Shown in pieces: positions 50,884-64,000 of a stretch of 64,000 nt of DNA (the stretch's first letter is position 1; each line of letters begins with the position of its first letter). The notes under the pieces were generated by a model. That model had not been told where the DNA came from. It saw only the letters and a program-made list of their open reading frames with translations, and made no database searches. The translations under genes and the position numbers were made by a program. Source of the stretch: Dyella acidiphila (GTDB lineage: Bacteria > Pseudomonadota > Gammaproteobacteria > Xanthomonadales > Rhodanobacteraceae); NCBI RefSeq assembly GCF_014863405.1, contig NZ_JACZZA010000006.1, positions 124,001 through 188,000 of the forward strand, read 5' to 3'.

Positions 50884-52263
50884 TCAGGGGGCGCCTGCCG
50901 GCTGGTCGCCCACGTTGAACAGCTGGAATTCGCGGATGCGTGCCGTGCAGGTGCTGGCCAGGATGTTCAGGCGCACCCGGGTGGTGGTGACCGGAGTGAA
51001 ACGGTCCAGCTTCATATGGCCGATCGCCTGGGCGCGGATCAGCGTTTTCCAGGGCTTGCCGGCACCGTCCCAGGCTTCGATCGCGTAGCTTTCCACGCAC
51101 TGGCCTTCGTTGAGCCATTCCATGCTCAAGGCATGGTCGAAGGTGACAGGCTGCGGAAAATCCACTTCGATCATGCCGCTGTGCGAACCATCCGGCGCGG
51201 ACCAGAAGGTATCGGGATTGCCGTCGATCGCCGAGGCGACCGCGCTGTTGTTGGCAAGATATTGGTGCGCCAGGTCCTTATCCAGGCCATAGCGCGCCTG
51301 CAGCGCCGCACCGAATTCCTGCAGTCGCGTCACATCCGCCTGCGGCAGCTGGCCGTGGCGATTGGGAGCCAGGCCCAGCATCAACTGGCCGCCGCGGCCG
51401 ACGCTGTTTTCCCAGATATCGAGTAGCTCGGCCACGCTCTTCAAGGTCTGGTCGCTGTTGGGATGCCAGAACCATTGCAGCTTGTGCAGCGGCGTATCCA
51501 CTTCCACCGGACGCCAGCGCAACTGCCCATGGCGATCGATCACGTTCCAGTTTTCCCAGCGGATGTGTCCGTCTTCCTGGCCTACCCAGCGGATATCGCC
51601 GTAGTCGAACAAGCCGACGTCGGCGAACACCATCGTATTGGATTGATAGGTGCGCAGTTCTTCCATGTACTTCTTGAAATCGTAGACGTGGCCACCGCTG
51701 CCGGCACCGTCCAGCCACCATTCGACCAGCGGGCCGTAACCCTGCACCAGTTCGTCCATTTCGGCCATGTAATATTTGTCGTACGCGGCCGGATCCTTGT
51801 AGCGCGGTTCGTGCCGGTCCCACGGCGACAGATAGATGCCGAATTCCAGGCCCTCCTTGCGCACGGCTTCTTCGGTCATGCGCACCAGGTCGCCCTTGCC
51901 GCCCATCCACGGGCTGCGCTTCAACGAATAGTCGGTTTGCTCGGTGGGCCACAGCGCAAAGCCGTCATGATGCTTGGCGACCAGCACCAGATAGTGCGCA
52001 CCGGCGGATTTGGCCGCACGCGCCCACTGATCCGGATCGACGTGATCGGGGTTGAACACCTTCGGATCGGCGGTGCCGTCGCCCCATTCGCGATCCAGGA
52101 AGGTATTGGTGCCGAAGTGCACGATGACGCCGAACTCCAGGTCCTGCCAATGCAGCTGCTGCGGCGACGGTTTCACATCGACGAAGTTTTGCGCGGACAC
52201 GGTGCCGGCGAGGGAAGCGGCCATAAGCATGGCAGTGCACAGAACACGTCGATAGAACCGCAT
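50884..52263 (-). CDS. secreted alpha-L-fucosidase (GH29) with C-terminal discoidin-like domain
   Basis: Exported glycosidase of 459 residues releasing alpha-linked L-fucose with retention. A signal peptide of about 24 residues ends in TVSA. The GH29 barrel shows LEFGVIVHFGTNTF at 43-56, AKHHDGFALWPTEQTDYS near 96-113, and the nucleophile Asp185 in LVEWWLDGAGSGG. The last 130 residues (ASAIDGNPDTFWSAPDGSHS; MIEVDFPQPVTFDHALSMEW; TTTRVRLNILASTCTARIREF) form an F5/8-type carbohydrate-binding fold. The start is ATG 52263. It lies 53 bases after the IclR gene on the same strand and 1 kb from fucP, so it feeds the catabolic genes nearby. Confidence 0.93.
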   Translation of the reverse strand: MRFYRRVLCTAMLMAASLAGTVSAQNFVDVKPSPQQLHWQDLEFGVIVHFGTNTFLDREWGDGTADPKVFNPDHVDPDQWARAAKSAGAHYLVLVAKHHDGFALWPTEQTDYSLKRSPWMGGKGDLVRMTEEAVRKEGLEFGIYLSPWDRHEPRYKDPAAYDKYYMAEMDELVQGYGPLVEWWLDGAGSGGHVYDFKKYMEELRTYQSNTMVFADVGLFDYGDIRWVGQEDGHIRWENWNVIDRHGQLRWRPVEVDTPLHKLQWFWHPNSDQTLKSVAELLDIWENSVGRGGQLMLGLAPNRHGQLPQADVTRLQEFGAALQARYGLDKDLAHQYLANNSAVASAIDGNPDTFWSAPDGSHSGMIEVDFPQPVTFDHALSMEWLNEGQCVESYAIEAWDGAGKPWKTLIRAQAIGHMKLDRFTPVTTTRVRLNILASTCTARIREFQLFNVGDQPAGAP

Positions 52264-52316
52264 TGCTTGGAAACCTTTGTGATGATTGGCAAGGACCACG
52301 CCGTGGCGTGGCGTAA

Positions 52317-53093
52317 TCAGCTGGAGCGTGCCGGACCGCCGAATTGCAGCGCTTCGGAAATTTCCCCGGTGGCGCGCAGCAGGGCGGCGATGACATCGTC
52401 CATGGTTTGCTTGGTGGTCTGCTGCTCGATGTATGGAATGGTCAGCGCACAGGTGGCATGGCCGTGCTCCAACACCGGCGCGGAAAGATCGGTCACCGCA
52501 TCCACCACATTGCTGGGCTCGCTGGAATAGCCGTGCGCGCGCAGCTGGGTCAGCAGCTTGGTCAGTTTCTTGCGGTCCAGCCCGGGCTCATGGCGTGCGA
52601 TCAGGTCCAGCCAGCGTTCGCGCACCTGTTCTTCCTGGAAGGCCAGCAGCACATGCCCGGACGTGGACTGCGACATCGGGCGGCGATGGCCTACGCGCAC
52701 CACCAGGGCGATCTCGCCGGGCGGATCCACCCGCGCGACCACCACGATCTGCTCGCCCGACGGCACCACCAGATGGCAGGCCTGGCCAAGCGCATCGGCC
52801 AGCCGGTGCATGACCGGCATGGCCGCTTCGATCGCGCTTTTTACCGGCGGCTGCTCCATGCCCAGCCGGAACAGCCGCGGTGTTACCGAATAGCCGCCAT
52901 CGCCTTCGCCGCGCGCGATGTAGTCGCGCTCTTCCAGTACCTGCAACATGCGAAAGATTTCGCCGCGCGAACGGCCCACGCCTTCGGAAATTTCGGCGAT
53001 GCTCAGGGGCCGCTTCGAACCGGCGAGCAGTTCGAGGATATCCAGCCCCTTGTCGAGCGCCGGGGCGCGGTATTTGGGAGTGGCAGTCGGCAT
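52317..53093 (-). CDS. IclR-family regulator, probable regulator of fucose genes
   Basis: A 258-residue IclR-type regulator. The winged helix-turn-helix is at 10-75 (ALDKGLDILELLAGSKRPLS; IAEISEGVGRSRGEIFRMLQ), followed by the ligand domain from about 85 (GQACHLVVPSGEQIVVVARV; PMSQSTSGHVLLAFQEE; GHATCALTIPYIEQQTTKQT). The start at 53093 has AGGGAAG four bases upstream; the longer open frame runs under the divergent fucP promoter. It diverges from fucP (185-bp gap) and precedes the fucosidase gene, so it very likely governs fucose uptake and breakdown. Whether it activates or represses, and the ligand, are inference. Confidence 0.88.
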   Translation of the reverse strand: MPTATPKYRAPALDKGLDILELLAGSKRPLSIAEISEGVGRSRGEIFRMLQVLEERDYIARGEGDGGYSVTPRLFRLGMEQPPVKSAIEAAMPVMHRLADALGQACHLVVPSGEQIVVVARVDPPGEIALVVRVGHRRPMSQSTSGHVLLAFQEEQVRERWLDLIARHEPGLDRKKLTKLLTQLRAHGYSSEPSNVVDAVTDLSAPVLEHGHATCALTIPYIEQQTTKQTMDDVIAALLRATGEISEALQFGGPARSS

Positions 53094-53195
53094 GTTTCTT
53101 CCCTGTCTGTAGGCGGATACCTGCGACAGTGGCACAGCTGGTGCGTCACGTGCCCCGGCGGACGCGCGGATGTTGCGGCGCGTCTTGTGGTATCC

Positions 53196-53228
53196 ATGAA
53201 TAACGGTTTCATATTTGCACAAATGAGG
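53196..53228. promoter_or_regulatory. candidate operator between IclR gene and fucP
   Basis: This AT-rich patch holds ATGAA-N7-TTCAT (53196-53212) and the adjoining GTTTCATATTTG-CA-CAAATGA, an imperfect inverted repeat. GTTTCATA at 53206-53213 recurs at 61258-61265 before the fucose operon. It is a plausible binding site for the divergent IclR protein. The exact boundaries are uncertain. Confidence 0.45.
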
Positions 53229-53278
53229 GGAGCCGTCACGTTCAGGACCGCTCCACAGCGGGCCATCGGGAGCAGAGG

Positions 53279-54583
53279 GTGAGTGTGCAATCCATAACTG
53301 AAGAACCATCCGCGACTGGTGCCGGCGAGCGCCGCACCGCATGGCTGCCGCTGGTACTGGTGGTCAGCCTGTTTTTCCTCTGGGGCGCGGCCAACAACCT
53401 CAATGACGTGCTGATCGCGCAGTTCAAAAAAGCGTTCGTACTCAGCGATTTCGGGGCGGGCCTGGTGCAGAGCGCGTTCTATCTGGGCTATTTCCTGGTG
53501 GCCATGCCGGCCGGCATGTACATGCGGCGCTTCGGCTACAAGAGCGCGGTGGTGTTGGGCCTGGTGCTTTACGCCGCCGGCGCGCTGCTGTTCTGGCCGG
53601 CCGCCTCGCTGGCTGCCTACGGGCTGTTCCTGTTCGCGCTGTTCGTGATCGCCAGCGGCCTGGCGTTTCTGGAGACCTCGGCCAATCCCTTCGTGACCTT
53701 GCTGGGGCCGCCCGAAAGTGGCACGCGCCGTCTCAACCTGGCGCAGGCCTTCAATCCGCTCGGCTCGATCGCCGGCATCCTGATCGGGCAGCATTTCATC
53801 TTTACCGGCATCGAGCGCACGCCTGGGCAGATTGCGGCGATGAGCGCGGTCGAGCGCACGGCCTACTTTCACGGCGAGACGCATGCCGTGCAGTGGCCGT
53901 ATCTGGTGATCGGCGTGGTCGTGCTGGCCTGGGCGGTGCTGATCATGTTCACGCGTTTTCCGCGTGCGGCCGCCGCGGAGACGGCGGCGGCGCCTAGTGG
54001 CGATGGCGTGCTGCGACGGCTGCTGGGCGATCCGCGCTTTATCGGCGCCATGCTGGCGCAGTTCTTCTACGTCGGCGCACAGGTGGGGGTGTGGAGCTAC
54101 ACCATCCGTTACGTGCAGGCGAACATGGGCGGCACGACCGCGAAGGAAGCTGCCAATTTCCTCACCGCCGAGCTGCTGTGCTTCATGCTCGGACGCTTTA
54201 CCGGCGCAGCCCTGATGAAATATGTGGCGCCGGTACGCCTGTTGCTGGTGTTTGCGGCGATCAATATCGCGTTGACCCTGTACGCGGTGATGTCGCCGGG
54301 CAGCAGCGGCGCCTACGCGCTAGTGGTATGCAGCTTCTTCATGTCGGTGATGTATCCGACCATCTTCGCGCTCGGCGTCGAAGGGCGTAACGATGACGAA
54401 CGCAAGCTGGGCGCCGCCTTGCTGGTGATGACCATCATCGGTGGCGCGGTACTCACCGCGCTGATGGGCGCGGTATCCGATCATTCCAGCATCGCTACCG
54501 CGATGAGCGTGCCGGCCTGCTGCTTCGCAGTGATCCTGCTGTTTGCCTGGCGGCGCGGCATACCGAGGGAGGTGAACGGCTGA
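53279..54583 (+). CDS. fucP: L-fucose:H+ symporter of the MFS (FucP family)
   Basis: Inner-membrane sugar/proton symporter, 434 residues, about twelve helices. The FucP-family opening is clear: LFFLWGAANNLNDVLIAQFKK at 26-46, then GLVQSAFYLGYFLVAMPAGMYMRRFGYK and FLETSANPFVTLLGPPESGTRRLNLAQAF-type segment near 130-155. The GTG start at 53279 follows GCAGAGG. It diverges from the IclR gene, and the mutarotase gene overlaps its stop by one base (TGATG). FucP proteins of this family also carry glucose/galactose or N-acetylglucosamine, but the surrounding fucose enzymes favour fucose. Confidence 0.9.
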   Translation: MSVQSITEEPSATGAGERRTAWLPLVLVVSLFFLWGAANNLNDVLIAQFKKAFVLSDFGAGLVQSAFYLGYFLVAMPAGMYMRRFGYKSAVVLGLVLYAAGALLFWPAASLAAYGLFLFALFVIASGLAFLETSANPFVTLLGPPESGTRRLNLAQAFNPLGSIAGILIGQHFIFTGIERTPGQIAAMSAVERTAYFHGETHAVQWPYLVIGVVVLAWAVLIMFTRFPRAAAAETAAAPSGDGVLRRLLGDPRFIGAMLAQFFYVGAQVGVWSYTIRYVQANMGGTTAKEAANFLTAELLCFMLGRFTGAALMKYVAPVRLLLVFAAINIALTLYAVMSPGSSGAYALVVCSFFMSVMYPTIFALGVEGRNDDERKLGAALLVMTIIGGAVLTALMGAVSDHSSIATAMSVPACCFAVILLFAWRRGIPREVNG

Positions 54584-54921
54584 TGCAACGTCATTACTAC
54601 GCGCTCGATCTGCGCGACGATGCCGAGGCCATTGCCGAATACGAGCGCTGGCACCAGCCAGGGCAAGTGTGGCCGGAGATCATCGCCTCGATCCGCGCCT
54701 CCGGCGTGCAGGAGATGGAGATATTCCGCACCGGTAACCGATTGGTGATGGTGGTGCAGATGGCCGCAGGGCAGGGCATATCGCGCGAGGCGGCCGAGCC
54801 GGATGCGAAGACGCTGGCGTGGGAGGCGCTGATGGATCGCTATCAGCAGCGCTTGCCGTGGGCGCAGGCCGGGCAGAAATGGGTGCCGATGCAGCGGATT
54901 TTTTCACTCGCTGATGCGTAG
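54583..54921 (+). CDS. L-fucose mutarotase of the RhaM-like (DUF718) family
   Basis: A 112-residue protein with the ferredoxin-like fold of L-rhamnose mutarotases: LDLRDDAEAIAEYERWHQPG with the characteristic His near 24, WPEIIASIRASGVQEMEIFRT, NRLVMVVQM, and the C-terminal LPWAQAGQKWVPMQRIFSL. It interconverts alpha and beta anomers of the imported 6-deoxysugar so that the dehydrogenase receives its preferred form. Overlap with fucP shows co-expression. It is not the FucU/RbsD fold. Its stop codon (54919-54921) lies inside a 31-bp inverted repeat. Confidence 0.85.
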   Translation: MQRHYYALDLRDDAEAIAEYERWHQPGQVWPEIIASIRASGVQEMEIFRTGNRLVMVVQMAAGQGISREAAEPDAKTLAWEALMDRYQQRLPWAQAGQKWVPMQRIFSLADA

Positions 54922-54994
54922 GTTGGGTTAGCGCAGCGTAACCCAACGATGCCGCACCGAACTGTTGGGTTACGCTGCGCTAACCCAACCTACG
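54917..54994. repeat. 31-bp perfect inverted repeat over the mutarotase stop codon
   Basis: Arms at 54917-54947 and 54964-54994 are exact complements with a 16-base spacer. Each arm alone contains GTTGGGTTA...TAACCCAAC, so each can also form a smaller hairpin. The core GGGTTAGCGCAGCGTAACCC is a type of short mobile palindrome found in many proteobacteria. The left arm includes the TAG of the mutarotase gene. It may terminate transcription between the convergent fucP and lldD units. Confidence 0.88.
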
Positions 54995-55026
54995 TGGCTG
55001 CCCGTGGGCCGCCTTCCTGGGCCACC

Positions 55027-55049
55027 ACTCCCGCTTTTGCGGGAATGAC
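55027..55049. repeat. short REP-like palindrome 3
   Basis: ACTCCCGCTTTTGCGGGAATGAC: the stem TCCCGC/GCGGGA with a four-base loop and the GAATGAC tail that mark REP units. It lies 30 bases before the lldD stop, next to the larger inverted repeat. A single unpaired copy. Confidence 0.65.
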
Positions 55050-55078
55050 GGCCATGAAGTTTGCGTCCCAGGGGGCAA

Positions 55079-56281
55079 TCAACGCCGGCACGGTACTCCG
55101 TCAAACTGCGTGCTGATGATGCTCAGCATGCCCTCCGGCGCCTTGCGCCAGATCAGGTCATCCGAAAGATTGCGCACATCGGTCTGCCCGGTCAGCGCCA
55201 TGCTCACGCTCAGCTCGCGCCGGATCAGCTCGATCGTCTGCGTCACGCCCGCTTCGCCCAGGGCGCCCAGGCCGTAGAGAAAGGCCTTGCCGATCAAGCC
55301 GGCATGCGCGCCGCAGGCCAGCGCCTTGAGCAGGTCCTGGCCGCTCTGGATGCCGCCGTCGAACAGCACCTGCATGCGTTCGCCCACGGCCTGCACGATC
55401 GACGGCAACACCTCGATGGTGGCCGGCGCACCATCCAGCTGGCGGCCGCCGTGGTTGGAAACCACGATCGCATCCACGCCGTGATCGGCGGCGATGCGCG
55501 CGTCGCGCGGATCGAGAATGCCCTTGATGATCAGCTTGCCGGGCCACAGCTCGCGGATCCATTCCAGATCCTTCCACTCCAGCGTGGGATCGAATTGCTT
55601 GGCGATCCACTGCGCCAGCGTGCTGAGGCTGTCGGTGTTGTCGATGCGGCCTTGCAGGTTGCCGAAGGAGCGGCTCGGTGCGCGCAGCATGCTCCAGGCC
55701 CAGCGTGGCTTGCTGGCCATGTCGAGCAGGTTGTGCAAGGTGAGCCGCGGCGGCACCGACAGGCCGTTCTTGATTTCGCGATGGCGCTGACCTTGTACGG
55801 TCAGGTCGGCGGTAAGCATCAAGGCGCTGCATTGCGCCGCCTTGGCGCGCTGAATCAGATCGCGCGTAAAGCCGCGATCGCGCATCACGTAAACCTGGAA
55901 CCAGAACGGCGTCTGCACCGCCTCGCGCACCTGCTCGATCGAGCAGATCGACATGGTGCTCAGGCAGAACGGAATGCCGGCCTTGGCCGCGGCCCGCGCG
56001 CCAAGGATCTCGCCGCCGCCATGCTGCAGCCCGGTGAGCCCGGTGGGCGCGATCGCCAGCGGCATCGACACCGGCTGCCCGACGATCTCGGTGGCCAGCG
56101 AGCGTTGATCCACATTGCACATCACGCGCTGGCGCAGGGCGATGCGCTCCAGCGCTGCGCGGTTTGCGCGCAGCGTGGTTTCGTCGTACGAGCCGCGGTC
56201 GGCATATTCGAAGAATGCGCGCGGCACGCGGCGCCTGGCCAGGGCGCGCAGATCGGCAACGTTGGTGATGGGAGTGCTCAT
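55079..56281 (-). CDS. lldD: FMN-dependent L-lactate dehydrogenase (alpha-hydroxy-acid oxidase family)
   Basis: A 400-residue flavoprotein oxidising L-lactate to pyruvate, electrons to the quinone pool in LldD-type enzymes. Seen: FFEYADRGSYDETTLRANRAAL at 23-44, PLAIAPTGLTGLQHGGGEILGA near 73-95, TADLTVQGQRHREIKNG near 172, and the catalytic His in VVSNHGGRQLDGAPATIEVL followed by the FMN phosphate loop FDGGIQSGQDLLKALACGA. The start is ATG 56281. It is the last gene of the fucose operon (ten bases after fuconate dehydratase), where L-lactate is expected as end product. Glycolate or mandelate oxidation is an alternative. Confidence 0.9.
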   Translation of the reverse strand: MSTPITNVADLRALARRRVPRAFFEYADRGSYDETTLRANRAALERIALRQRVMCNVDQRSLATEIVGQPVSMPLAIAPTGLTGLQHGGGEILGARAAAKAGIPFCLSTMSICSIEQVREAVQTPFWFQVYVMRDRGFTRDLIQRAKAAQCSALMLTADLTVQGQRHREIKNGLSVPPRLTLHNLLDMASKPRWAWSMLRAPSRSFGNLQGRIDNTDSLSTLAQWIAKQFDPTLEWKDLEWIRELWPGKLIIKGILDPRDARIAADHGVDAIVVSNHGGRQLDGAPATIEVLPSIVQAVGERMQVLFDGGIQSGQDLLKALACGAHAGLIGKAFLYGLGALGEAGVTQTIELIRRELSVSMALTGQTDVRNLSDDLIWRKAPEGMLSIISTQFDGVPCRR

Positions 56282-56291
56282 GGACGCCCCG

Positions 56292-57608
56292 TTATGCCTT
56301 CGCGGTGTCGACCGGCATACACCATGCCGGACCCTCCGGGTAAACATACTGCGCCACGCTGTCCGTGCGCATTTGCGCCGAAAAGCCCGGCGCGCTGGGC
56401 GCAATGTAGCAGCCGTTGGCAATCACCACCGGATCGACGAAATGCTCGTGCAGGTGGTCGACGAATTCAATCGCGCGATCGTCCTTATTGCCGCTGATCG
56501 CCACGAAATCGGCCATCGCCAGATGCTGCACCAGCTCGCACAGGCCCACGCCGCCGGCATGCGGGAACACGCGCACGCCGAACTTGGCGGCCAGCAGCAT
56601 GATCGCCAGGTTCTCGTTCACGCCGCCCACACGCGCCGCGTCGATCTGGATCAGGTCCACGGCATTGGCCTGGAACAACTGCTTGAACATCACCCGGTTC
56701 TGCGTGTGTTCGCCGGTGGAAATCGGCACCGGCGCCACCGCATGGCGGATCGCCGCATGGCCGAGCACGTCATCGGGGCTGGTGGGCTCTTCCACCCAGG
56801 CCAGGCGGAACTCCGCCAGGTGACGCAGCCAGGCGATCGCGTCGGGCACATCCCAGCGCTGGTTGGCATCGACCGCGATACCGATATCGGGACCGACCGT
56901 CGCGCGTGCCAGGCGGCAGCGGCGCACGTCGTCCTCCACATTCATGCCGACCTTCAGCTTGATGGTGCGAAAACCCGCGGCCACCGCTTCGCGCGCCAGG
57001 CGCTGCATTTTTTCGTCGCTATAGCCCAGCCAGCCCGGCGACGTGGTGTAGGCCGGGTAGCCTTCCTGCAGCAACTGCGCCAAGCGTCGCGCTTTGCCCG
57101 CCGCGGCAGCGTGCAGCATGGTCAGTGCTTCTTCCGGCGTCAGCGCATCGGTGAGATAGCGGAAGTCGATGGTGGCGACGATCTGTTCCGGCGTCATGTC
57201 GGCGATAAAGCGCCACAGCGGCTTGCCGGCGGCGCGCGCGGCAAGATCCCACGCGGCATTCACCACCGCGCCGATCGCCATGTGCATCACGCCTTTTTCG
57301 GGACCCAGCCAGCGCAGCTGCGAATCGCCGATCAGGCGGCGTGCAAAACCACCGAGATCGTCGATCACTTCATCCAGATCCAGTCCGGCGACGTGATGAT
57401 TCAACGCATCGATCGCTGCCTTCTGCACATCGTTGCCGCGGCCGATGGTGAAGGCCAGACCGTAGCCGGCCAGACTCGGTTGGTCGGTGCGCATCACCAC
57501 ATAGGCGGCGGAGTAATCCGGATCCGGATTCATCGCATCCGAACCATCCAGTTCGCGCGAGGTGGGAAAGCGGACATCGTAGGTGTCCAGCGCGGTGATC
57601 TTGCTCAT
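56292..57608 (-). CDS. L-fuconate dehydratase
   Basis: Enolase-superfamily enzyme (438 residues) removing water from L-fuconate to give 2-keto-3-deoxy-L-fuconate. Catalytic set: the KxK motif Lys217/Lys219 (TIKLKVGMN), metal ligands Asp247 (DANQRW), Glu273 (WVEEPTS) and Glu300 (STGEHTQN), and the base His350 (VFPHAGGVG). These positions are each one less than those I recall for the characterised Xanthomonas campestris enzyme (220, 248, 274, 301, 351), very strong support. [17 protein letters not shown] near the start is also typical. It overlaps the upstream hydrolase gene by four bases. Confidence 0.95.
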
Positions 57609-58465
57609 GCGCGCACGTTCTCCGGATGGGCGTGCACCTGTTGGCGCTGCTGGCCCAGGCCCTCAATGCCCAGTTCGATCACATCGCCGGCCTGCAGGTA
57701 CTTCGGCGGCTTTTGTCCCAGGCCTACGCCAGCCGGCGTGCCGGTGCTGATTACATCGCCCGGCAGCAGCGTCATGTAGCGGCTGATATGGCTGACCAGC
57801 TTGGCCACACTGAAGATCATCGTGCGCGTATGGCCGTTCTGATAGCGATGGCCATTCACTTCCAGCCACAGCGCCAGGTTCTGCGGATCGGGCACTTCGT
57901 CGGCCGTGACCAGCCACGGGCCCAGCGGGCCGAAGGTGTCGCAGCTCTTGCCCTTCACCCATTGGCCGCCGTGCTCGAACTGGAAATCGCGCTCGGACAG
58001 ATCGTTCACCACCAGGTAGCCGGCCACATGCGACAGCGCCTGTTCTTCGCTGACGCTGCGTGCGGTTTCGCCGATCACCACGCCCAGTTCCACTTCCCAG
58101 TCGGTCTTGATGGAATCTTTCGGAATGATCACGTTGTCGTTCGGTCCCATGATGGCGCTGGTCGCCTTCATGAAGATCACCGGCAGCTGCGGCACCGGTG
58201 CATTGGTTTCTGCGGCGTGCTCGGCGTAGTTCATGCCCACGCAGATCATCTTGCTGACGTGCGCGATGGGCGAGCCATAGCGCGGCTCGCCTGCCACTTG
58301 CGGCAGCTGCTGCGGATCGAGTTGGGCCAAGCGTGCGCGGCCGTCGCGGCCGAGCGCCTGCGCATCGATGTCACTGATTACGGCAGAGAGATCGCGCAGC
58401 GTGCCGGCGGTGTCGATCAGGCCGGGCCGTTCCTTGCCCACGGCGCCATAACGGACCAGTTTCAT
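57605..58465 (-). CDS. 2,4-diketo-3-deoxy-L-fuconate hydrolase (FAH family)
   Basis: A 286-residue fumarylacetoacetate-hydrolase-fold enzyme. The C-terminal catalytic part starts [19 protein letters not shown] near 74. Metal-binding Glu124 and Glu126 lie in [18 protein letters not shown], with Asp155 in [11 protein letters not shown] and later [19 protein letters not shown]. In the non-phosphorylating fucose route this family cleaves 2,4-diketo-3-deoxy-L-fuconate to pyruvate and L-lactate. Position between the SDR and dehydratase genes supports that. An ureidoglycolate lyase-like label would be the generic annotation; context makes the fucose role more likely. Confidence 0.88.
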
Positions 58466-58485
58466 GGAATACGTGCTCCTGCTGT

Positions 58486-59232
58486 TCAGTTGGACCAGCC
58501 GCCATCCACAACGTGGATGGTGCCGGTGGTAAAGGCGGATTCGTCGGAGGCGAGATACAACGCTAGTGCGGCGATTTCTGCGGGTTCGCCCAGCCGGCCC
58601 ATCGGCTGGCGCGCGACAAAGCTCTGCCAGTTGGCCGCCTCGTCACCGCCCAATGCGCGCACGCGTTCGCCCAGCGACGGCGTTTTCACCGTGCCGGGGC
58701 AGATCGCATTGCAGCGCACGCCGCGCGCGACAAAGTCGGCGGCAATGGAACGGGTGAGGCCGATCACCGCGGCTTTGGTGGTGCTGTAGGCAAAGCGGTT
58801 GGGTACGCCCTTCACGCTGGACGCCACCGACGACATGTTGATGATGCTGCCGCGGCCTTGTTCGAGCATGCCCGGCAGCACGGCCTTGCACAGCTGGAAC
58901 ATGCTGTCCACGTTGATGGCGAACGAACGCTGCCAGCTGGCGTCGTCGGTATCCAGAATGGTGCCCGCGTGCACAAAGCCGGCGCAGTTGAACAGCACAT
59001 CGAAGGGACCGGCGTGCTGGACCAGCTCGCGGATTTCCTCGGTGCGCGTCACGTCCAGCCGCTGCGTACTGATCGACGCATGTTCGGCCGCCAGCGTGGC
59101 CAGCGCCTGGCTATCGATATCGGTGGCCAGCACCTGTGCGCCGGCATTGGCGAAGGCGAGGGCGGTGGCACGGCCGATGCCTGCGCCTGCCGCAGTGATC
59201 AGGGCCTTTTTGCCGGAGAGGCGTCCGCTCAT
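58486..59232 (-). CDS. 2-keto-3-deoxy-L-fuconate dehydrogenase (SDR)
   Basis: A 248-residue short-chain dehydrogenase. NAD-binding TAAGAGIGRATALAF at 13-27 (TxxxGxG form), Asp38 in LATDIDSQ favouring NAD over NADP, catalytic Ser near 135-139 (NMSSVASSVKG) and Tyr149-x-x-x-Lys153 in AYSTTKAAV, then the end DGGWSN. In the pathway it oxidises 2-keto-3-deoxy-L-fuconate at C4. The gene stands between lactonase and hydrolase genes in the minus-strand operon, 20 bases before the latter. An alternative is L-fucose dehydrogenase, but the aldo-keto reductase gene fills that role. Confidence 0.88.
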   Translation of the reverse strand: MSGRLSGKKALITAAGAGIGRATALAFANAGAQVLATDIDSQALATLAAEHASISTQRLDVTRTEEIRELVQHAGPFDVLFNCAGFVHAGTILDTDDASWQRSFAINVDSMFQLCKAVLPGMLEQGRGSIINMSSVASSVKGVPNRFAYSTTKAAVIGLTRSIAADFVARGVRCNAICPGTVKTPSLGERVRALGGDEAANWQSFVARQPMGRLGEPAEIAALALYLASDESAFTTGTIHVVDGGWSN

Positions 59233-59278
59233 GGCGTGAATCCTTTGCGATCGGAATGGAAGAGGGTGGTGTTCATGG

Positions 59279-60130
59279 CTAGCTATGTGTATCCAGCTTC
59301 AGCGCATAGCAGCGCACGGCGTTGGCGGCGAATACATCAGCCTGCGTGCCGGGCGCGTAGCGTTCGGTATATGTCTGTGCAAGCCGGAGCCAGTGTTCGA
59401 ATGAGGCGCGCAAAGTGAGTACGGGCCAGTCGCTGCCCCAGATCAGCCGGGTGCTGCCGAAGCTGGCGAACAGGTGCTGGGCATAGGGCGCGATGGCTTC
59501 TTCGTGCGTCGTACCGCTCAATTGCGTCAGCAGGCCGGACAACTTGCAGTAAAGCTGTGGATGCGCGGAAAGCTGATCGATCCAGTTGGCCCACAGTGCG
59601 ATCGGCGCCTCGCCGATCGACGGCTTGCCGGCGTGGTCCAGCACTACGCGCAACGCCGGCTGCCGTTGCAGTCGGCGCAGCAATGCAGGCAGTTGCGGCA
59701 TGCCGACCAGCGCATCGAACGCCAGCCCGCGCGCCTGGATGCAGTCGAAAGCACGGTCGAGCGCCGGACTCGCCAGCCAGTCCGGATCGGCCAGGTCCTG
59801 CGCCATCGGCCGCAATCCGCAGAGCAGGCCGTTGCCGTCGCGGATCAGCGCGTCAATGCGCGCCTCGACATCGACGGCTTCCATATCTACCCAGCCGATC
59901 ACCCCGACAACACCGGCATCCTGCTGCGCCAGCTCGAACAGATACCGCGTTTCCGGTTCCGTAGGCGCCGCCTGCACCAGCACGCTGGCAGTTACGCCGG
60001 CGGCCTTGCGCTGCGCCTGCAGATCGGCCGGCAGAAAAGCGGCGCGCAATGCTTCCGGCGCATCGGCCAGCCAGCCGTAGTCGCCGCGCGAGGGCTGCCA
60101 ATAATGCTGGTGCGCATCGACGATGATCAT
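59279..60130 (-). CDS. L-fucono-lactonase (amidohydrolase-2 family)
   Basis: A 283-residue TIM-barrel hydrolase of the amidohydrolase 2 (COG3618) group. Metal-site His7 and His9 in IVDAHQHYWQPSRGDYGWL, WVDMEAVDVEARIDAL near 103, ALRVVLDHAGKPSIGE near 158-172 and the late Asp in LIWGSDWPVLTL near 230. These enzymes open L-fucono-1,5-lactone (and related sugar lactones) to the acid. It overlaps the aldo-keto reductase gene by four bases, so the lactone maker and opener are translated together. Rhamnonolactone is an alternative substrate. Confidence 0.88.
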   Translation of the reverse strand: MIIVDAHQHYWQPSRGDYGWLADAPEALRAAFLPADLQAQRKAAGVTASVLVQAAPTEPETRYLFELAQQDAGVVGVIGWVDMEAVDVEARIDALIRDGNGLLCGLRPMAQDLADPDWLASPALDRAFDCIQARGLAFDALVGMPQLPALLRRLQRQPALRVVLDHAGKPSIGEAPIALWANWIDQLSAHPQLYCKLSGLLTQLSGTTHEEAIAPYAQHLFASFGSTRLIWGSDWPVLTLRASFEHWLRLAQTYTERYAPGTQADVFAANAVRCYALKLDTHS

Positions 60131-61155
60131 GGCGTCGGCACGGCTTCCTGCAGCAGGCCGGCGTCACGCAGGGCCTGCCATGCGGCACGGGGAACCGGCA
60201 TCTGCATGCGCTCGCTGGCCGTGTCGACTTCGGCGGGCGAGCGCAGGCCGCAGACCACGCTGGCTACTGCCGGATGCGCCAGCGGAAATTGCAGGGCGGC
60301 CGCGCCGACATCCGTATGGCTGTGGCCGAGCACCTCATAAAAGCGCTGCGCACGTGCTTGCACCGCCGGTTCGGCCGGGGCGTAGTTGTAGAACTGGCCA
60401 GGCCCGCGGCTATCGCCGAGCAGGCCGGAGTTGTACGGGCCGGCCGCGAGGATGGCGATGCCGCGCTCTTGCGCCTGCGCCATCACGGCGGCGCTATGCG
60501 CCTGTTCGAACAAGGTGTAGCGGCCGGCCAGCATGATCGCGTCCAGGGCAAAACGCGGCATCACTTCCAGGCATACGGCTTCTTCGTTGACGCCCAGGCC
60601 GATCGCGTCGCATACGCCTTGTGCGCGCAGTTCTGCCATCGCCGGCAGCGCTTCGTCCAGCGCCTGCTGCAAGACGGCGGCATGGCGTTCGCCGTGAGTA
60701 AGTGCGCCGATATCGTGCAGCAACAGCAGCTCGACATGATCGGTGCGCAGGCGCCGCAGGCTGGCCTCGACCGAGCGCAGCACGCCGTCGCGGCTGTAGT
60801 CGAAGCGTGCGCGCTGCCCGTCGACGATAAAGCCGTCGGCGTGGCCGGTCTGCTGCGCATCGGCTTCGATCAGGCGGCCGACCTTGGTCGACAGGCTGTA
60901 GCTGTTGCGCGGCATGCCGGCCAGGGCGGCGCCGATACGGCTTTCGCTGAGGCCGTAGCCGTAATAGGGGGCGGTATCGACATGGCGGATGTTGCGCAGC
61001 CAGGCGCGGGCCAGCGTGTAGGCAGCAGCTTCGTCATCCACCGACGCATAGAGATTGCCGATCGGCGCGCCGCCGAAGGCCAGTCGAGAGCGCAGCCAGG
61101 GGCGTGGCGCCAGCTCGGGCTGGGGCGCGTCAGATGGGGTTGTCGCTTGTGTCAT
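60127..61155 (-). CDS. L-fucose dehydrogenase of the aldo/keto reductase family
   Basis: A 342-residue NAD(P)-dependent barrel enzyme, first gene of the operon. Aldo-keto catalytic tetrad visible: Asp60 and Tyr65 in HVDTAPYYGYGLSE, Lys91 in LSTKVGRLIE, and His in VELLLLHDIGALTHG. VCDAIGLGVNEEAVCLE and VASVVCGLRSPAEVDTA near the end match the D-threo-aldose / pyridoxal 4-dehydrogenase type. It oxidises L-fucose at C1 to the lactone, the pathway's first step. The start at 61155 faces the GH18 gene; the 249-bp divergent region holds AT-rich repeats that may be operators. Confidence 0.88.
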   Translation of the reverse strand: MTQATTPSDAPQPELAPRPWLRSRLAFGGAPIGNLYASVDDEAAAYTLARAWLRNIRHVDTAPYYGYGLSESRIGAALAGMPRNSYSLSTKVGRLIEADAQQTGHADGFIVDGQRARFDYSRDGVLRSVEASLRRLRTDHVELLLLHDIGALTHGERHAAVLQQALDEALPAMAELRAQGVCDAIGLGVNEEAVCLEVMPRFALDAIMLAGRYTLFEQAHSAAVMAQAQERGIAILAAGPYNSGLLGDSRGPGQFYNYAPAEPAVQARAQRFYEVLGHSHTDVGAAALQFPLAHPAVASVVCGLRSPAEVDTASERMQMPVPRAAWQALRDAGLLQEAVPTP

Positions 61156-61249
61156 GCAGCCTCGCGATAGCCCCGGCGTGCACGAGCGGAAATCCCCTCG
61201 CCGTGGCTTTGCGGCGGATCATCGCGCATCCGGAGTGCTGTGTATATAT

Positions 61250-61265
61250 AAACAAAAGTTTCATA
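61250..61265. promoter_or_regulatory. candidate operator element A in the fucose-operon control region
   Basis: AAACAAAAGTTTCATA lies 95 bases before the aldo-keto reductase start in an AT-rich stretch following TATATATA. A closely similar sequence in the opposite direction occurs at 61336-61351, and GTTTCATA also occurs before fucP. It is a candidate site for the IclR-type regulator. Confidence 0.45.
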
Positions 61266-61335
61266 GATGCTTCGCGATGACCTCCCGGCCGCCTCAAAAA
61301 GCACTTGCAATTCGATTTATCTCGATCTAAACATA

Positions 61336-61351
61336 TATGAACTTCTGTTTT
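61336..61351. promoter_or_regulatory. candidate operator element B in the fucose-operon control region
   Basis: TATGAACTTCTGTTTT is, read on the minus strand, AAAACAGAAGTTCATA, nearly the same as element A with one substitution and one base missing. It sits 53 bases before the GH18 start, so each divergent transcript has one element facing it. Confidence 0.4.
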
Positions 61352-61404
61352 GCCAATAAACGGATACTCGGCTGGTGGGGCCGCGTCCGGTCGGGGAATG
61401 TCTG

Positions 61405-62484
61405 ATGGCACGTTTGAAAGTCCGCGCTGGCGTCTGCAAGTGGCTGCTTGGCCTCACGGCGGGACTGATGGCTTGCGGCGCCGCCATGGCGCAGCAGCCT
61501 GAGGCGCTGTTCTATCTGATCGGCATGCAGAAGTCGGTCAATTCCTTCGTGGCGCACGTGGACAAGGTCGGTCTGCTGGTACCTACCTGGTATGGGGTGG
61601 ACAGCCAGGGCCTGGTCAACGGCGGTCCCAACCAGTACGTGCTGGATATCGCCACGCAACACCGGGTGCCGGTGGAGCCGATCATTTCCATGTCGTCCGG
61701 GCGCGACGGCTTCCATACGCTGCTGCACGACGAAGTCGCCAAGCAGCACATGATCGAATCGATGCTGCAGCAGGCGCAGCAATACCGCTATGCCGGTTTC
61801 CAGTTCGACTTCGAAAGCATCTCCTGGACTGACCGCGACGCGTTCACCTTGCTGGTCAAGCAAACCGCCGAGGCGCTGCACAAGCATGGCTTCAAGCTCT
61901 CCATCGCGATGGTGCCGAATGCGCCGGGGCATGCCGGGCAGGGGCGCTTTTCCAAATGGATGTGGCAGTACTGGCGCGGCGTCTACGATCTGGCGGCACT
62001 GGGCAAATACGCCGACCTGATCTGCCTGATGACCTATGACCAGCACACGCGCTGGACCGCGCCCGGTCCAGTAGACGGCCTGCCGTGGATGCTGGAGCAG
62101 CTCAAATACGCCTTGACGCTGGTACCCAGGCAGAAGCTCTCGCTGGGCATCGCGCTCTACGGCTATCACTGGTATACCGGCAATCCGGTGCGCGACGATG
62201 GCAGCGAGGCTTCCAATATCCAGGCCAGCTACATCGACGCCGACGAGTCCTTCCCGCTGGCGCAGGAACAGCATGCCGATGTGCAGTGGGATTCGGTCGA
62301 CCACGAGTCCTGGTATTACTTCTACCGCGACGACATGCGCGAATGGGTGTTCCGGCCCGATGCGCGCAGTTTCGCCGACCGCTATGCCTTGGTGAAGCAA
62401 TACGATCTGGAAGGTTTCTGCGCCTGGGTGATCGGCGCGGAAGATCCCAAGGTATGGGACGAGCTGCCGGTGGTGCAGCGTTGA
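61405..62484 (+). CDS. exported GH18-like glycoside hydrolase
   Basis: A 359-residue protein with a signal peptide (hydrophobic 12-30, ending AAMAQ). The body has the GH18 barrel pattern: a degenerate DxxDxDxE motif AGFQFDFES with Asp135 and the acid Glu137 retained, ICLMTYDQH near 208-216 (the MxYD strand), GIALYGYHWYT near 248, and AWVIGAEDPKVW near the end. It may be an endo-beta-N-acetylglucosaminidase or a chitobiose-active enzyme acting on N-glycans. Chitinase is less likely with this short form. It is 59 bases before the GH3 gene and divergent from the fucose operon. Confidence 0.82.
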   Translation: MARLKVRAGVCKWLLGLTAGLMACGAAMAQQPEALFYLIGMQKSVNSFVAHVDKVGLLVPTWYGVDSQGLVNGGPNQYVLDIATQHRVPVEPIISMSSGRDGFHTLLHDEVAKQHMIESMLQQAQQYRYAGFQFDFESISWTDRDAFTLLVKQTAEALHKHGFKLSIAMVPNAPGHAGQGRFSKWMWQYWRGVYDLAALGKYADLICLMTYDQHTRWTAPGPVDGLPWMLEQLKYALTLVPRQKLSLGIALYGYHWYTGNPVRDDGSEASNIQASYIDADESFPLAQEQHADVQWDSVDHESWYYFYRDDMREWVFRPDARSFADRYALVKQYDLEGFCAWVIGAEDPKVWDELPVVQR

Positions 62485-62543
62485 TCCGCACGCGCAAGGA
62501 TGCAGTGTCCATCGCCGTTGATAGAGGCCTGTAGCAGCGCATC

Positions 62544-64000
62544 ATGAAGCTTGTCGGCGCCATCGTTAAAAAGAGCACGCTGCTGGCGTTTGTCGCCGCG
62601 GCGGCAACTGTGCCGTTCACTGCGGCAAGCCAGGATGCGCAGAGCCAGGCCGCGGCGCTGGTGGCGCACATGACGCTGCCGGAAAAGGTCGCGCAGCTGC
62701 AGAGCAACGCACCGGCCATTCCGCGCCTGCATATCGCCGCCTATGACTGGTGGAACGAAGGCCTGCACGGGCATGCGCGCGACGGCGATGCCACCGTGTT
62801 TCCGCAGGCGATCGGCCTGGCGGCGAGCTGGGACACCGGCCTGCTTCATGATGTCGGCAGCGTGGTGTCGACCGAGGCGCGCGCCCGCTTCAATGCCGCC
62901 GGCGCGGGCCATAGCCATGCGCGTTATGAAGGGCTCAGCATCTGGTCGCCCAACATCAACATCTTTCGCGATCCGCGCTGGGGCCGCGGCCAGGAAACCT
63001 ACGGCGAAGACCCGTATCTCACCGGCCAGCTCGCCATCGGTTTCATCCGCGGTATCCAGGGCGACGATCCGGCGCACCCGCGCGCGATCGCCACGCCCAA
63101 GCATTTCGTGGTGCATAGCGGACCGGAATCGGGCCGTCACGGTTTCGACGTAGATGTGTCGCCGCACGATCTGGAAGCGACCTATCTGCCGGCCTTCCGC
63201 GCGGCGATCGTCGATGCGCACGCCGATTCCGTCATGTGCGCCTACAACGCGCTGCATGGCACGCCGGTATGTGCCGACGATGCCTTGCTGAGCACGCGGC
63301 TGCGGCATGACTGGGGCTTCAAGGGCTATGTCGTTTCCGATTGCGATGCGATCGACGACATGACCGAGTTCCATTATTTCAAGCCGGACAATGCCCAGTC
63401 TTCGGCTGCTGCGCTGAAGGCCGGCACCGACCTCGATTGCGGCGACGCCTATGCGGGCCTGCTCGATGCCGTGCACCAAGGCTACGTGACCGAAAAAGCG
63501 CTCGATACCGCGCTGACCCGCTTGTTTGCCGCACGCTACCGCTTCGGCGAATGGGGTGGCGGCAACGATCCCTATGCATCGATCGGCCTGGACCAGATCG
63601 ACACCGCTGCCCACCGTCAGTTTGCCTTGCAGGCTGCGCTGGAATCGATCGTTCTGTTAAAGAACGAACACGGTGCATTGCCGCTGTCGGCGGGTGCACG
63701 TGTGGCCGTGGTCGGGCCGAACGCCGATACGCTGGAAACGCTGGAAGCCAATTATCACGGCACCGCGCGCGCACCGGTGACGCCGTTGCAGGGTCTGCGC
63801 CAGCGCTTCGGCGCGCAGCAGATCAGCTATGCGCAGGGCGCGCCGATCGCCGGTGGCGTACCGGTGCCGATTCCCGAAACGGCCTTGCGCACGCCGGACG
63901 GCAGTCAGCCTGGCCTGACCGGCGAATATTTCGCCACGCCCGATTTCAACGGCAAGCCAGCCCTGGTGCGTACCGATCGCCGCATCGATTTCGATTGGGA
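62544..64000 (+). CDS. exported GH3 beta-glycosidase with PA14 insert, N-terminal part
   Basis: The frame is open at the right edge; 485 residues are visible. The signal peptide covers about 28 residues (LLAFVAAAATVPFTAAS). The GH3 barrel has YDWWNEGLHGHARDG near 71-85, the nucleophile Asp266 in GYVVSDCDAIDDM, and GTDLDCGDAYAGLL near 295, features shared with bacterial and plant beta-xylosidases. From about 455 the segment LTGEYFATPDFNGKPALVR begins a PA14 domain, which in GH3 enzymes shapes substrate choice. Likely activity is beta-xylosidase or beta-glucosidase; beta-1,2-xylose of plant N-glycans is an idea from the neighbours. Second gene after GH18. Confidence 0.88.
   Translation, partial: MKLVGAIVKKSTLLAFVAAAATVPFTAASQDAQSQAAALVAHMTLPEKVAQLQSNAPAIPRLHIAAYDWWNEGLHGHARDGDATVFPQAIGLAASWDTGLLHDVGSVVSTEARARFNAAGAGHSHARYEGLSIWSPNINIFRDPRWGRGQETYGEDPYLTGQLAIGFIRGIQGDDPAHPRAIATPKHFVVHSGPESGRHGFDVDVSPHDLEATYLPAFRAAIVDAHADSVMCAYNALHGTPVCADDALLSTRLRHDWGFKGYVVSDCDAIDDMTEFHYFKPDNAQSSAAALKAGTDLDCGDAYAGLLDAVHQGYVTEKALDTALTRLFAARYRFGEWGGGNDPYASIGLDQIDTAAHRQFALQAALESIVLLKNEHGALPLSAGARVAVVGPNADTLETLEANYHGTARAPVTPLQGLRQRFGAQQISYAQGAPIAGGVPVPIPETALRTPDGSQPGLTGEYFATPDFNGKPALVRTDRRIDFDW

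Follow-up and report, generated by a model that had tools for sequence, protein, structure and literature searches.

Why do the genes for degrading L-fucose stand beside genes for trimming N-glycans, and which glycan supplies the fucose? We consider this question for a locus of Dyella acidiphila on contig C25 of a 28-contig, 5.07-Mb genome, starting from a window of 64,000 nucleotides (C25:124001-188000). The original prediction placed a compact locus for the release, uptake and degradation of fucose at 50884-64000. All ten gene families that it named are present in these 13 kb, each as an uninterrupted frame, but the boundary does not hold, as the locus runs on to C25:197773 (window-equivalent 73773). 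Our answer, to which we assign a probability of about 0.78, is that plant N-glycan harvest is joined here to fucose degradation under palindromic sites switched by an IclR-family regulator; the N-glycan-trimming and the fucose-degrading enzymes stand side by side, probably under one switch. The gene content, the orthology of FucD, NixF and NixI, the recurrent joining of the two gene sets and a recurrent palindrome are what the sequences themselves provide, and in the gene content and the joining our confidence is high.

Is the joining found in other genomes? We compare 147 genomes of the family, the window's included, from 26 genera, for L-fuconate dehydratase (FucD) and for the glycoside hydrolase (GH) family 18 protein that corresponds to NixF of the Xanthomonas nix cluster. 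FucD is present in 49 of the 147. The NixF-type GH18 has matches in 35 genomes; with two at 38% identity set aside, 33 remain at 62% or more, and all 33 also carry FucD. The two genes share a contig in 31 of these genomes, 3,797 to 9,960 bp apart, and lie on different contigs in the other two (Fisher p 4e-21 for the association, relatedness uncorrected). We read 24 of the 31 loci, including those of Dyella mobilis, D. flagellata, D. dinghuensis and Luteibacter jiangsuensis. In every one the neighbor of the aldo-keto reductase (AKR) gene is a nix-side gene on the opposite strand: the kinase in 17, NixE in three, the TonB receptor in three and GH18 in one. The D. acidisoli locus (L008), whose GH18 is found on the adjoining stretch (L114) and which therefore counts as nix-bearing, is the 25th with this arrangement; it also carries LldD and the glucokinase-family gene. 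The Luteibacter loci have homologs of the TonB receptor, NixE, NixF, NixL, NixI and NixG joined to the fucose operon.

Sixteen genomes carry FucD with no GH18 at 62% or more. The 12 of their loci that we read, 14 kb each, contain no GH18, no GH3 and no NixE-type GH29 over 50%; one of them (L165, genome G106) has a 38% GH18 match on another contig, and four, all of genus g22, have a divergent GH20 at the position of the nix operon. AKR, a short-chain dehydrogenase/reductase (SDR), an FAH-family hydrolase and FucD occur together in 37/37 family loci read, a grouping beyond chance, and the lactonase in 32 of the 37, the five without a match all belonging to genus g24. The L-lactate dehydrogenase LldD (at least 45% identity) is found in 23 of the 24 NixF-bearing loci tallied and in 0/12 FucD-only loci. 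The joining is a recurrent arrangement in ten genera of the family, and it is absent from the three Xanthomonas genomes compared, where the fucose and nix clusters lie on different contigs. The fucose pathway, the nix enzymes and the role of nix on plant N-glycans are already known; the joining of nix-type and fucose genes in one locus is new. A thin search finds no joined nix-fuc locus in Dyella or its family in the titles and abstract openings among the open-access matches listed.

We turn our attention to the fucose genes, for which route 3 of the non-phosphorylating L-fucose pathway (Xanthomonas campestris, Herbaspirillum huttiense; FucM-FucA-FucB-FucC-FucF-FucG) is the known counterpart. 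As predicted, each step between L-fucose and the products pyruvate and L-lactate has a candidate gene. The evidence for this pathway is firmest at FucD and the SDR and weakest at AKR and the lactonase. The comparison of gene order with Xanthomonas that had been proposed as a check gives five loci in which AKR, lactonase, SDR, FAH hydrolase and FucD are grouped with FucM, FucP and IclR much as in Dyella, and iclR adjoins fucP in the Dyella, Luteibacter and Xanthomonas loci alike. The Dyella operon differs in ending in LldD, unmatched in those Xanthomonas slices, and the Dyella locus differs in its secreted GH29 beside the regulator and its divergent N-glycan operon.

FucD is 76-78% identical to the proteins of the five Xanthomonas loci and 86-88% identical to those of four Dyella species. 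The likeness to the characterized Xanthomonas dehydratase is borne out by a nearly full-length phmmer alignment to the solved enzyme (2hxt), in which the segments KLKVG, DANQ, EEPTS, GEHTQ and PHAGG, which we take to hold the catalytic residues, are identical. It reaches no NCBIfam cut-off, and there is no fuconate model among its 17 matches; a search of plasmids with FucD finds the family widespread. In the SDR, the residues described as the substrate contacts of L-2-keto-3-deoxyfuconate (L-KDF) 4-dehydrogenase, Arg148, Thr183, Arg192, Arg214 and Trp252 (PMC11199699), fall on identical residues when aligned with 8y11, as do the NAD pair Asp41-Ile42 and the catalytic Ser137 and Tyr151, given a shift of 10 in chain numbering that is deduced from the fit. 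This is the pattern of a type-1 enzyme (R-T-R-R, a hydrophobic residue at 252 and Asp-Ile at 41-42); among the best 25 of its 232 matches no NCBIfam cut-off is reached.

The operon holds an FAH-family diketo acid hydrolase in place of an aldolase. Its best solved relative, 8gsr, is the L-2,4-diketo-3-deoxyrhamnonate hydrolase of the L-rhamnose pathway, and it stays below the cut-off of the rhamnose-pathway model NF053535 (429 vs 500 bits). We reason that the two pathways would yield the same diketo acid, because carbon 5 alone keeps its stereochemistry. AKR reaches no NCBIfam cut-off, and its nearest solved relatives are distant L-galactose dehydrogenases (97.6 bits); the lactonase likewise falls short of its model (Table 1), so that the roles of both rest on context. 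FucP passes one model (Table 1) and narrowly misses a second (NF007524, 420.9 vs 427 bits), and a narrower NCBIfam model for LldD is also missed (390 vs 550 bits).

The question that follows is which glycan provides the fucose. The X. arboricola nix cluster has the order kinase (minus strand), TonB receptor, GH29, GH18, GH20, 896-aa NixH, GH3, NixJ, NixK and NixL, with nix letters assigned by gene order; apart from E, F and I, they are presumably those of Dupoiron 2015. The anchors nixE (XAC3072), nixF (XAC3073) and nixI (XAC3076) are given in PMC5700972. The Dyella locus shares with this cluster (nixE-nixL) the GH18 (70%) and GH3 (68%) orthologs, a nearby TonB receptor and a glucokinase-family gene. 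The GH18 has 69-70% identity with the protein encoded immediately after the NixE-type GH29 in 3/3 Xanthomonas genomes and is 62-83% identical to its counterparts in 32 other genomes of the family, and its D135 and E137 are invariant in an alignment of five sequences. The resemblance to the N-glycan cluster of Xanthomonas that the original prediction proposed holds for the two flanking hydrolases, GH18 and GH3 being the NixF and NixI orthologs; for the same reason the plant-type half of the predicted source, "plant-type or animal N-glycan", is favored. Animal N-glycan as main source we set aside, as both orthologs would point to plant-type cores. An AlphaFold model of the GH18 built from five sequences (mean pLDDT 67.8) has SleL-type and chitinase GH18 enzymes as its top Foldseek matches, with one GH18 N-acetylglucosaminidase at rank 40 and no N-glycan endoglycosidase named in the best 50 of 1,708; as a guide to substrate this comparison is too weak to decide.

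Further glycosidases and a TonB receptor, expected to the right of 64000, are indeed there: after GH3 follow a glucokinase-family kinase, a second (outer) GH29, a TonB receptor and a GH20 with an F5/8 domain. The outer GH29 is 57-58% identical to Xanthomonas NixE, and the tree places it apart from the NixE clade (support 98/89), to which Xanthomonas and further Dyella proteins belong; one row with an overlong branch (L138, probably in a wrong frame) is disregarded. The window GH29 has the alpha-1,3/4-fucosidase 3mo4/3ues as its best solved relatives (E 5e-84), and it keeps the Asp and Glu of 3ues at two positions that read alanine in 3uet. NixE is tied to core alpha-1,3-fucose in Xanthomonas. 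A core alpha-1,3-fucosidase in this genome would have to be the NixE paralog or the GH29-B enzyme of the window; no true NixE is found among its three PF01120 GH29 genes (57-58%, 28% and 25% identical to NixE). The third GH29 gene (L087:8738-10738, on C25 to the left of the window) is 28% identical to NixE and 30% to the outer GH29. In Luteibacter (L118:1-1273, L011:1-693) the GH29-B gene lies within the nix part; in Dyella it adjoins the regulator gene.

Elsewhere in the genome, contig C3 carries orthologs of NixK (61%, one of five GH92 genes), NixJ (GH125, 70%) and NixH (61%), with NixK about 10 kb from NixJ-NixH and none clustered with the nix genes of the window, and two PNGase A-family genes lie on contigs C2 and C21. 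The PNGase F family (PF09113) has no match, a negative that carries no weight because no control responded either. A PNGase of D. japonica is reported to deglycosylate horseradish peroxidase (PMC7348039). The genome thus holds candidates for the steps of the plant N-glycan core route, spread over at least four contigs; a plant-type N-glycan is the likely source of fucose, an identification that we hold with moderate confidence. The Dyella set departs from the Xanthomonas nix cluster in several ways: it is distributed over two contigs or more, it has a 57-58% paralog in place of NixE and another GH20 at the locus (no genome-wide search for NixG or NixL was made), and it is joined to fucose catabolism. 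The plant N-glycan loci of Bacteroides massiliensis also have a GH3 beta-1,2-xylosidase, GH29 core and antenna fucosidases, GH20, GH92 and PNGase, but are SusC/D-type and lie in several places, and the portion of the source at hand mentions no fucose catabolic operon (PMC9522356).

Could the two gene sets answer to one regulator? At one mismatch or less, a palindrome with the consensus ATGAA-N7-TTCAT occurs at two places only in the window, the iclR/fucP and the AKR/GH18 promoters. In relatives it is found at up to two mismatches in 31/37 AKR promoters and 16/21 usable FucP promoters (six without usable sequence being left out of the 21), and at up to one mismatch in 6/37 and 14/21; the corresponding rates in 7,400 random stretches of 280 bp from the same loci are 8.4% and 1.3%. 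This recurrence suggests one fucose regulon, with lower confidence than we have in the gene content or the glycan. A score matrix was built from 37 sites of relatives, the window excluded, seeded by the window motif. It ranks the three sites of Table 1 highest in the 64 kb, the next best place having 10.3 bits, and the score at 61248 is reached by 0/2000 mononucleotide shuffles of the AKR/GH18 promoter. A score of 24.0 bits is reached in two Xanthomonas fucose loci that did not contribute to the matrix. Genome-wide, ATGAAN7TTCAT has 5 places in 5.07 Mb, among them the iclR/fucP site, vs 2 in the control.

The sites at 61248 and 61337 are 89 bp apart. A pair spaced by 80-100 bp upstream of AKR is present in 17/25 NixF-bearing relatives and in 0/12 FucD-only loci (31/5,000 random stretches by chance), a distribution that would fit a role of the second site for the divergent nix operon. 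Sites of the outer kinase operon did not enter the matrix; they occur in pairs spaced by 113-114 bp in the genome of the window and three relatives and score up to 22.3 bits (two relatives). In a scan of 163,680 unique bases of the same genome, much of the part outside the window having been picked for glycan genes, sites of at least 16 bits are the two locus promoters and one place upstream of NixK; the latter (18.6 bits, L132:15071, about 206 bp upstream) is the best outside the locus in these bases, and its score is reached by 2/2000 shuffles of its 500-bp stretch. For the membership of NixK in such a regulon our confidence is likewise lower. As for the binder, KdgR-like and group-2 IclR motifs are described as palindromes with similar half-sites (PMC8222616), and the half-sites here fit an IclR protein without proving it. 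The GH29-B gene could be read from the iclR promoter.

According to the model, in which we infer the enzyme substrates, the cellular places, the identity of the regulator and the inducer, PNGase A-type enzymes encoded elsewhere would free N-glycans from glycopeptides, and the TonB receptor would take the fragments into the periplasm. Mannose, xylose and N-acetylglucosamine (GlcNAc) may be removed by NixK, NixJ and NixH of contig C3 together with the GH20 and the NixI-type GH3, the two GH29 enzymes may release fucose, and the NixF-type GH18 may split the chitobiose core. Fucose would be imported by FucP and converted by mutarotase, AKR, lactonase, FucD, SDR and FAH hydrolase to pyruvate and L-lactate, the latter being oxidized to pyruvate by LldD. 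The IclR protein would bind ATGAA-N7-TTCAT and switch the fucP, catabolic, GH18-GH3 and kinase-GH29-TonB-GH20 operons together, the signal being the presence of fucose or a pathway intermediate. We assume that the Xanthomonas nix genes respond to GlcNAc. Since the GlcNAc genes of X. campestris are reported to be controlled by the GntR-family NagQ (PMC13055268), control of the nix operon by fucose would amount to a rewiring. That fucose, not GlcNAc, signals the harvest, with one IclR protein at paired palindromes commanding the fucose, nix and TonB-operon genes as well as NixK, we put forward tentatively, at somewhat less than even odds. A recurrent locus of this kind would couple the degradation of a rare sugar from plant glycans to its liberation and offers a testable fucose regulon. 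It also makes a guilt-by-association case for a NixF-type GH18 that acts on fucosylated cores of plant N-glycans. Plant N-glycan enzymes serve as tools as well, and a Dyella PNGase has already been proposed as one (PMC7348039).

Several points weigh against this proposal, most of them on the side of regulation. The top matrix scores of the window are partly circular, because the motif that seeded the matrix came from the window itself. Most of the random background consists of coding sequence, and chance matches in promoters with more A and T may be underestimated by it. The kinase promoters of four of eight relatives have weaker sites only, reached by 3-13/300 shuffles (one of the eight has too little sequence), and a place of 15.6 bits in L133, not near glycan genes, rivals the best kinase-operon site (15.9) and illustrates what can arise by chance. 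The 330 bp in front of the GH29-B gene and of the lldD gene contain no site at up to two mismatches. A variant palindrome, RTRAAYNNNNNRTTYAY, has 5 places genome-wide vs 2 in the control, none in the locus, and for that it was dropped. The GH18/FucD association is uncorrected for relatedness, its 33 carriers falling within 10 genera. Such points lend themselves to a reading in which the gene sets are neighbors by inherited synteny without being co-regulated, the palindrome belonging to the fucose genes alone or to another regulator. It would draw on the dependence among related genomes, on the seeding of the matrix, on the weakness of the second AKR/GH18 site and on the 8/25 NixF-bearing relatives that lack the pair, and it is compatible with the gene-content part of our explanation. 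We consider it doubtful, as the pair is confined to NixF-bearing loci, the sites recur upstream of the outer kinase operon in relatives, and the nix stretch of X. arboricola (L119) has a maximum of 9.0 bits against the 24.0 bits of the Xanthomonas fucose loci, with one 15.5-bit place beyond NixL in L120.

Other points concern the glycan. The true NixE is missing from the three GH29 genes, the GH20 of the locus is not the NixG ortholog (35% identity), and a 2023 review knows of no GH18 described as active on plant N-glycans (PMC10154615), contrary to the assignment of NixF to the GlcNAc-GlcNAc bond (PMC5700972). Could a different plant polymer, xyloglucan or pectin for instance, be the main source of the fucose, with GH18, GH3 and GH20 as broad scavengers of GlcNAc and xylose? 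The GH3 stays below the Xyl3A cut-off of NCBIfam (813 vs 1250 bits), GH29 cluster 2 of a sequence similarity network, with NixE and BpGH29, is reported not to be isofunctional, and fucosidases of clusters 2 and 3 are reported to free fucose from xyloglucans (PMC11189522). We find this unlikely, given that GH18 and GH3 are nix orthologs, that the genome also encodes NixK, NixJ and NixH orthologs and PNGase A-family proteins, and that 0/17 proteins of the locus match a xyloglucanase or GH95 family in Pfam (the rest of the genome was not searched). The best solved relative of the outer GH29 is the exo-alpha-L-galactosidase 7ljj (E 4e-129), with the sibling entry 7snk, named alpha-L-fucosidase, at the same score. 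This also counts against our proposal, and it raises the thought of a locus that is for L-galactose no less than for L-fucose, with alpha-L-galactose released by the outer GH29 and the sugar accepted by the dehydrogenase and dehydratase. AKR is nearest to L-galactose dehydrogenases, and Xanthomonas FucD accepts L-galactonate. This is very improbable in our view: FucP passes the TIGR00885 model, the SDR keeps the Trp252 that lies next to the C6 methyl of L-KDF (PMC11199699), and the nearest solved GH29 structure says little on sugar choice because NixE and BpGH29 share one GH29 cluster (PMC11189522).

The features of the locus are collected in Table 1. The minus-strand operon has the order AKR, lactonase, SDR, FAH hydrolase, FucD and LldD, with 4-bp overlaps between the genes at two junctions (FucD/FAH hydrolase and lactonase/AKR), and the mutarotase gene overlaps fucP by 1 bp. 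The fucP and mutarotase genes are convergent to lldD, iclR and GH29 diverge from fucP, and GH18 and GH3 diverge from AKR. Signal peptides of the window GH29, GH18 and GH3 were judged by eye.

Table 1. Genes and predicted operator sites of the locus, in window positions.
Feature	Position	Strand	Support
GH29 (GH29-B), alpha-1,3/4-fucosidase type, C-terminal F5/8 type C domain	50884..52263	-	Pfam PF01120 146 bits, PF00754 46.8 bits
IclR-family regulator, candidate fucose regulator	52317..53093	-	Pfam HTH_IclR and IclR_C above cut-off
Predicted operator ATGAATAACGGTTTCAT, iclR/fucP intergenic	53196..53212	.	21.2 bits, rank 2 in 64 kb
FucP, L-fucose:H+ symporter	53279..54583	+	NCBIfam TIGR00885 429.5 bits (cut-off 280.4)
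L-fucose mutarotase candidate, rhaM family PF05336	54583..54921	+	Pfam 88.4 bits (cut-off 23.4)
LldD, FMN L-lactate dehydrogenase, last gene of operon	55079..56281	-	NCBIfam PRK11197 439 bits (cut-off 376)
FucD, L-fuconate dehydratase	56292..57608	-	phmmer E 1e-226 to 2hxt/1yey
FAH-family 2,4-diketo-3-deoxy-L-fuconate hydrolase candidate	57605..58465	-	best solved relative 8gsr, E 9e-101
SDR, type-1 L-2-keto-3-deoxyfuconate 4-dehydrogenase	58486..59232	-	best solved relative 8y11, E 1e-87
L-fucono-1,5-lactonase candidate (amidohydrolase)	59279..60130	-	4dlf E 2e-34; NCBIfam FuconLaconase 206.7 bits (below cut-off 400)
AKR, L-fucose 1-dehydrogenase candidate	60127..61155	-	Pfam PF00248 126.5 bits
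Predicted operator ATAAACAAAAGTTTCAT, AKR/GH18 divergent promoter, AKR-proximal	61248..61264	.	24.3 bits, rank 1 in 64 kb
Weaker predicted operator, AKR/GH18 promoter, GH18-proximal	61337..61353	.	13.7 bits, rank 3 in 64 kb
GH18, secreted, NixF ortholog	61405..62484	+	69-70% identity to Xanthomonas NixF
GH3, secreted, NixI ortholog, beta-1,2-xylosidase candidate	62544..64000, on to window-equivalent 65159 (C25:189159)	+	68% identity to X. arboricola GH3 (NixI)

Some minor observations follow. Genus g24 (L161-L165) keeps AKR, SDR, FAH hydrolase, FucD and FucP with no lactonase match in the 14 kb read; L165 has a 41% lactonase match beyond the 14 kb read (L019:20329), and a variant palindrome, ATGGA-N7-TCCAC, stands upstream of AKR in 3/5 of these loci. 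A locus from a metagenome-assembled genome (L014) has neither AKR nor lactonase within its 21 kb. In L154-L158 and L160 a distant GH29 (27-32%) directly follows FucD, in the place of LldD. Right of the N-glycan genes, L005:13530-20000 holds a repetitive open frame of at least 2157 aa that looks autotransporter-like by eye. Between the convergent mutarotase and lldD genes of the window lies a perfect inverted repeat of 31 nt with a 16-nt loop (54917-54994), whose 26-base core is unique within the window, with a GCGGGAATGAC element close by at 55039; it looks like a dispersed repeat or a bidirectional terminator.

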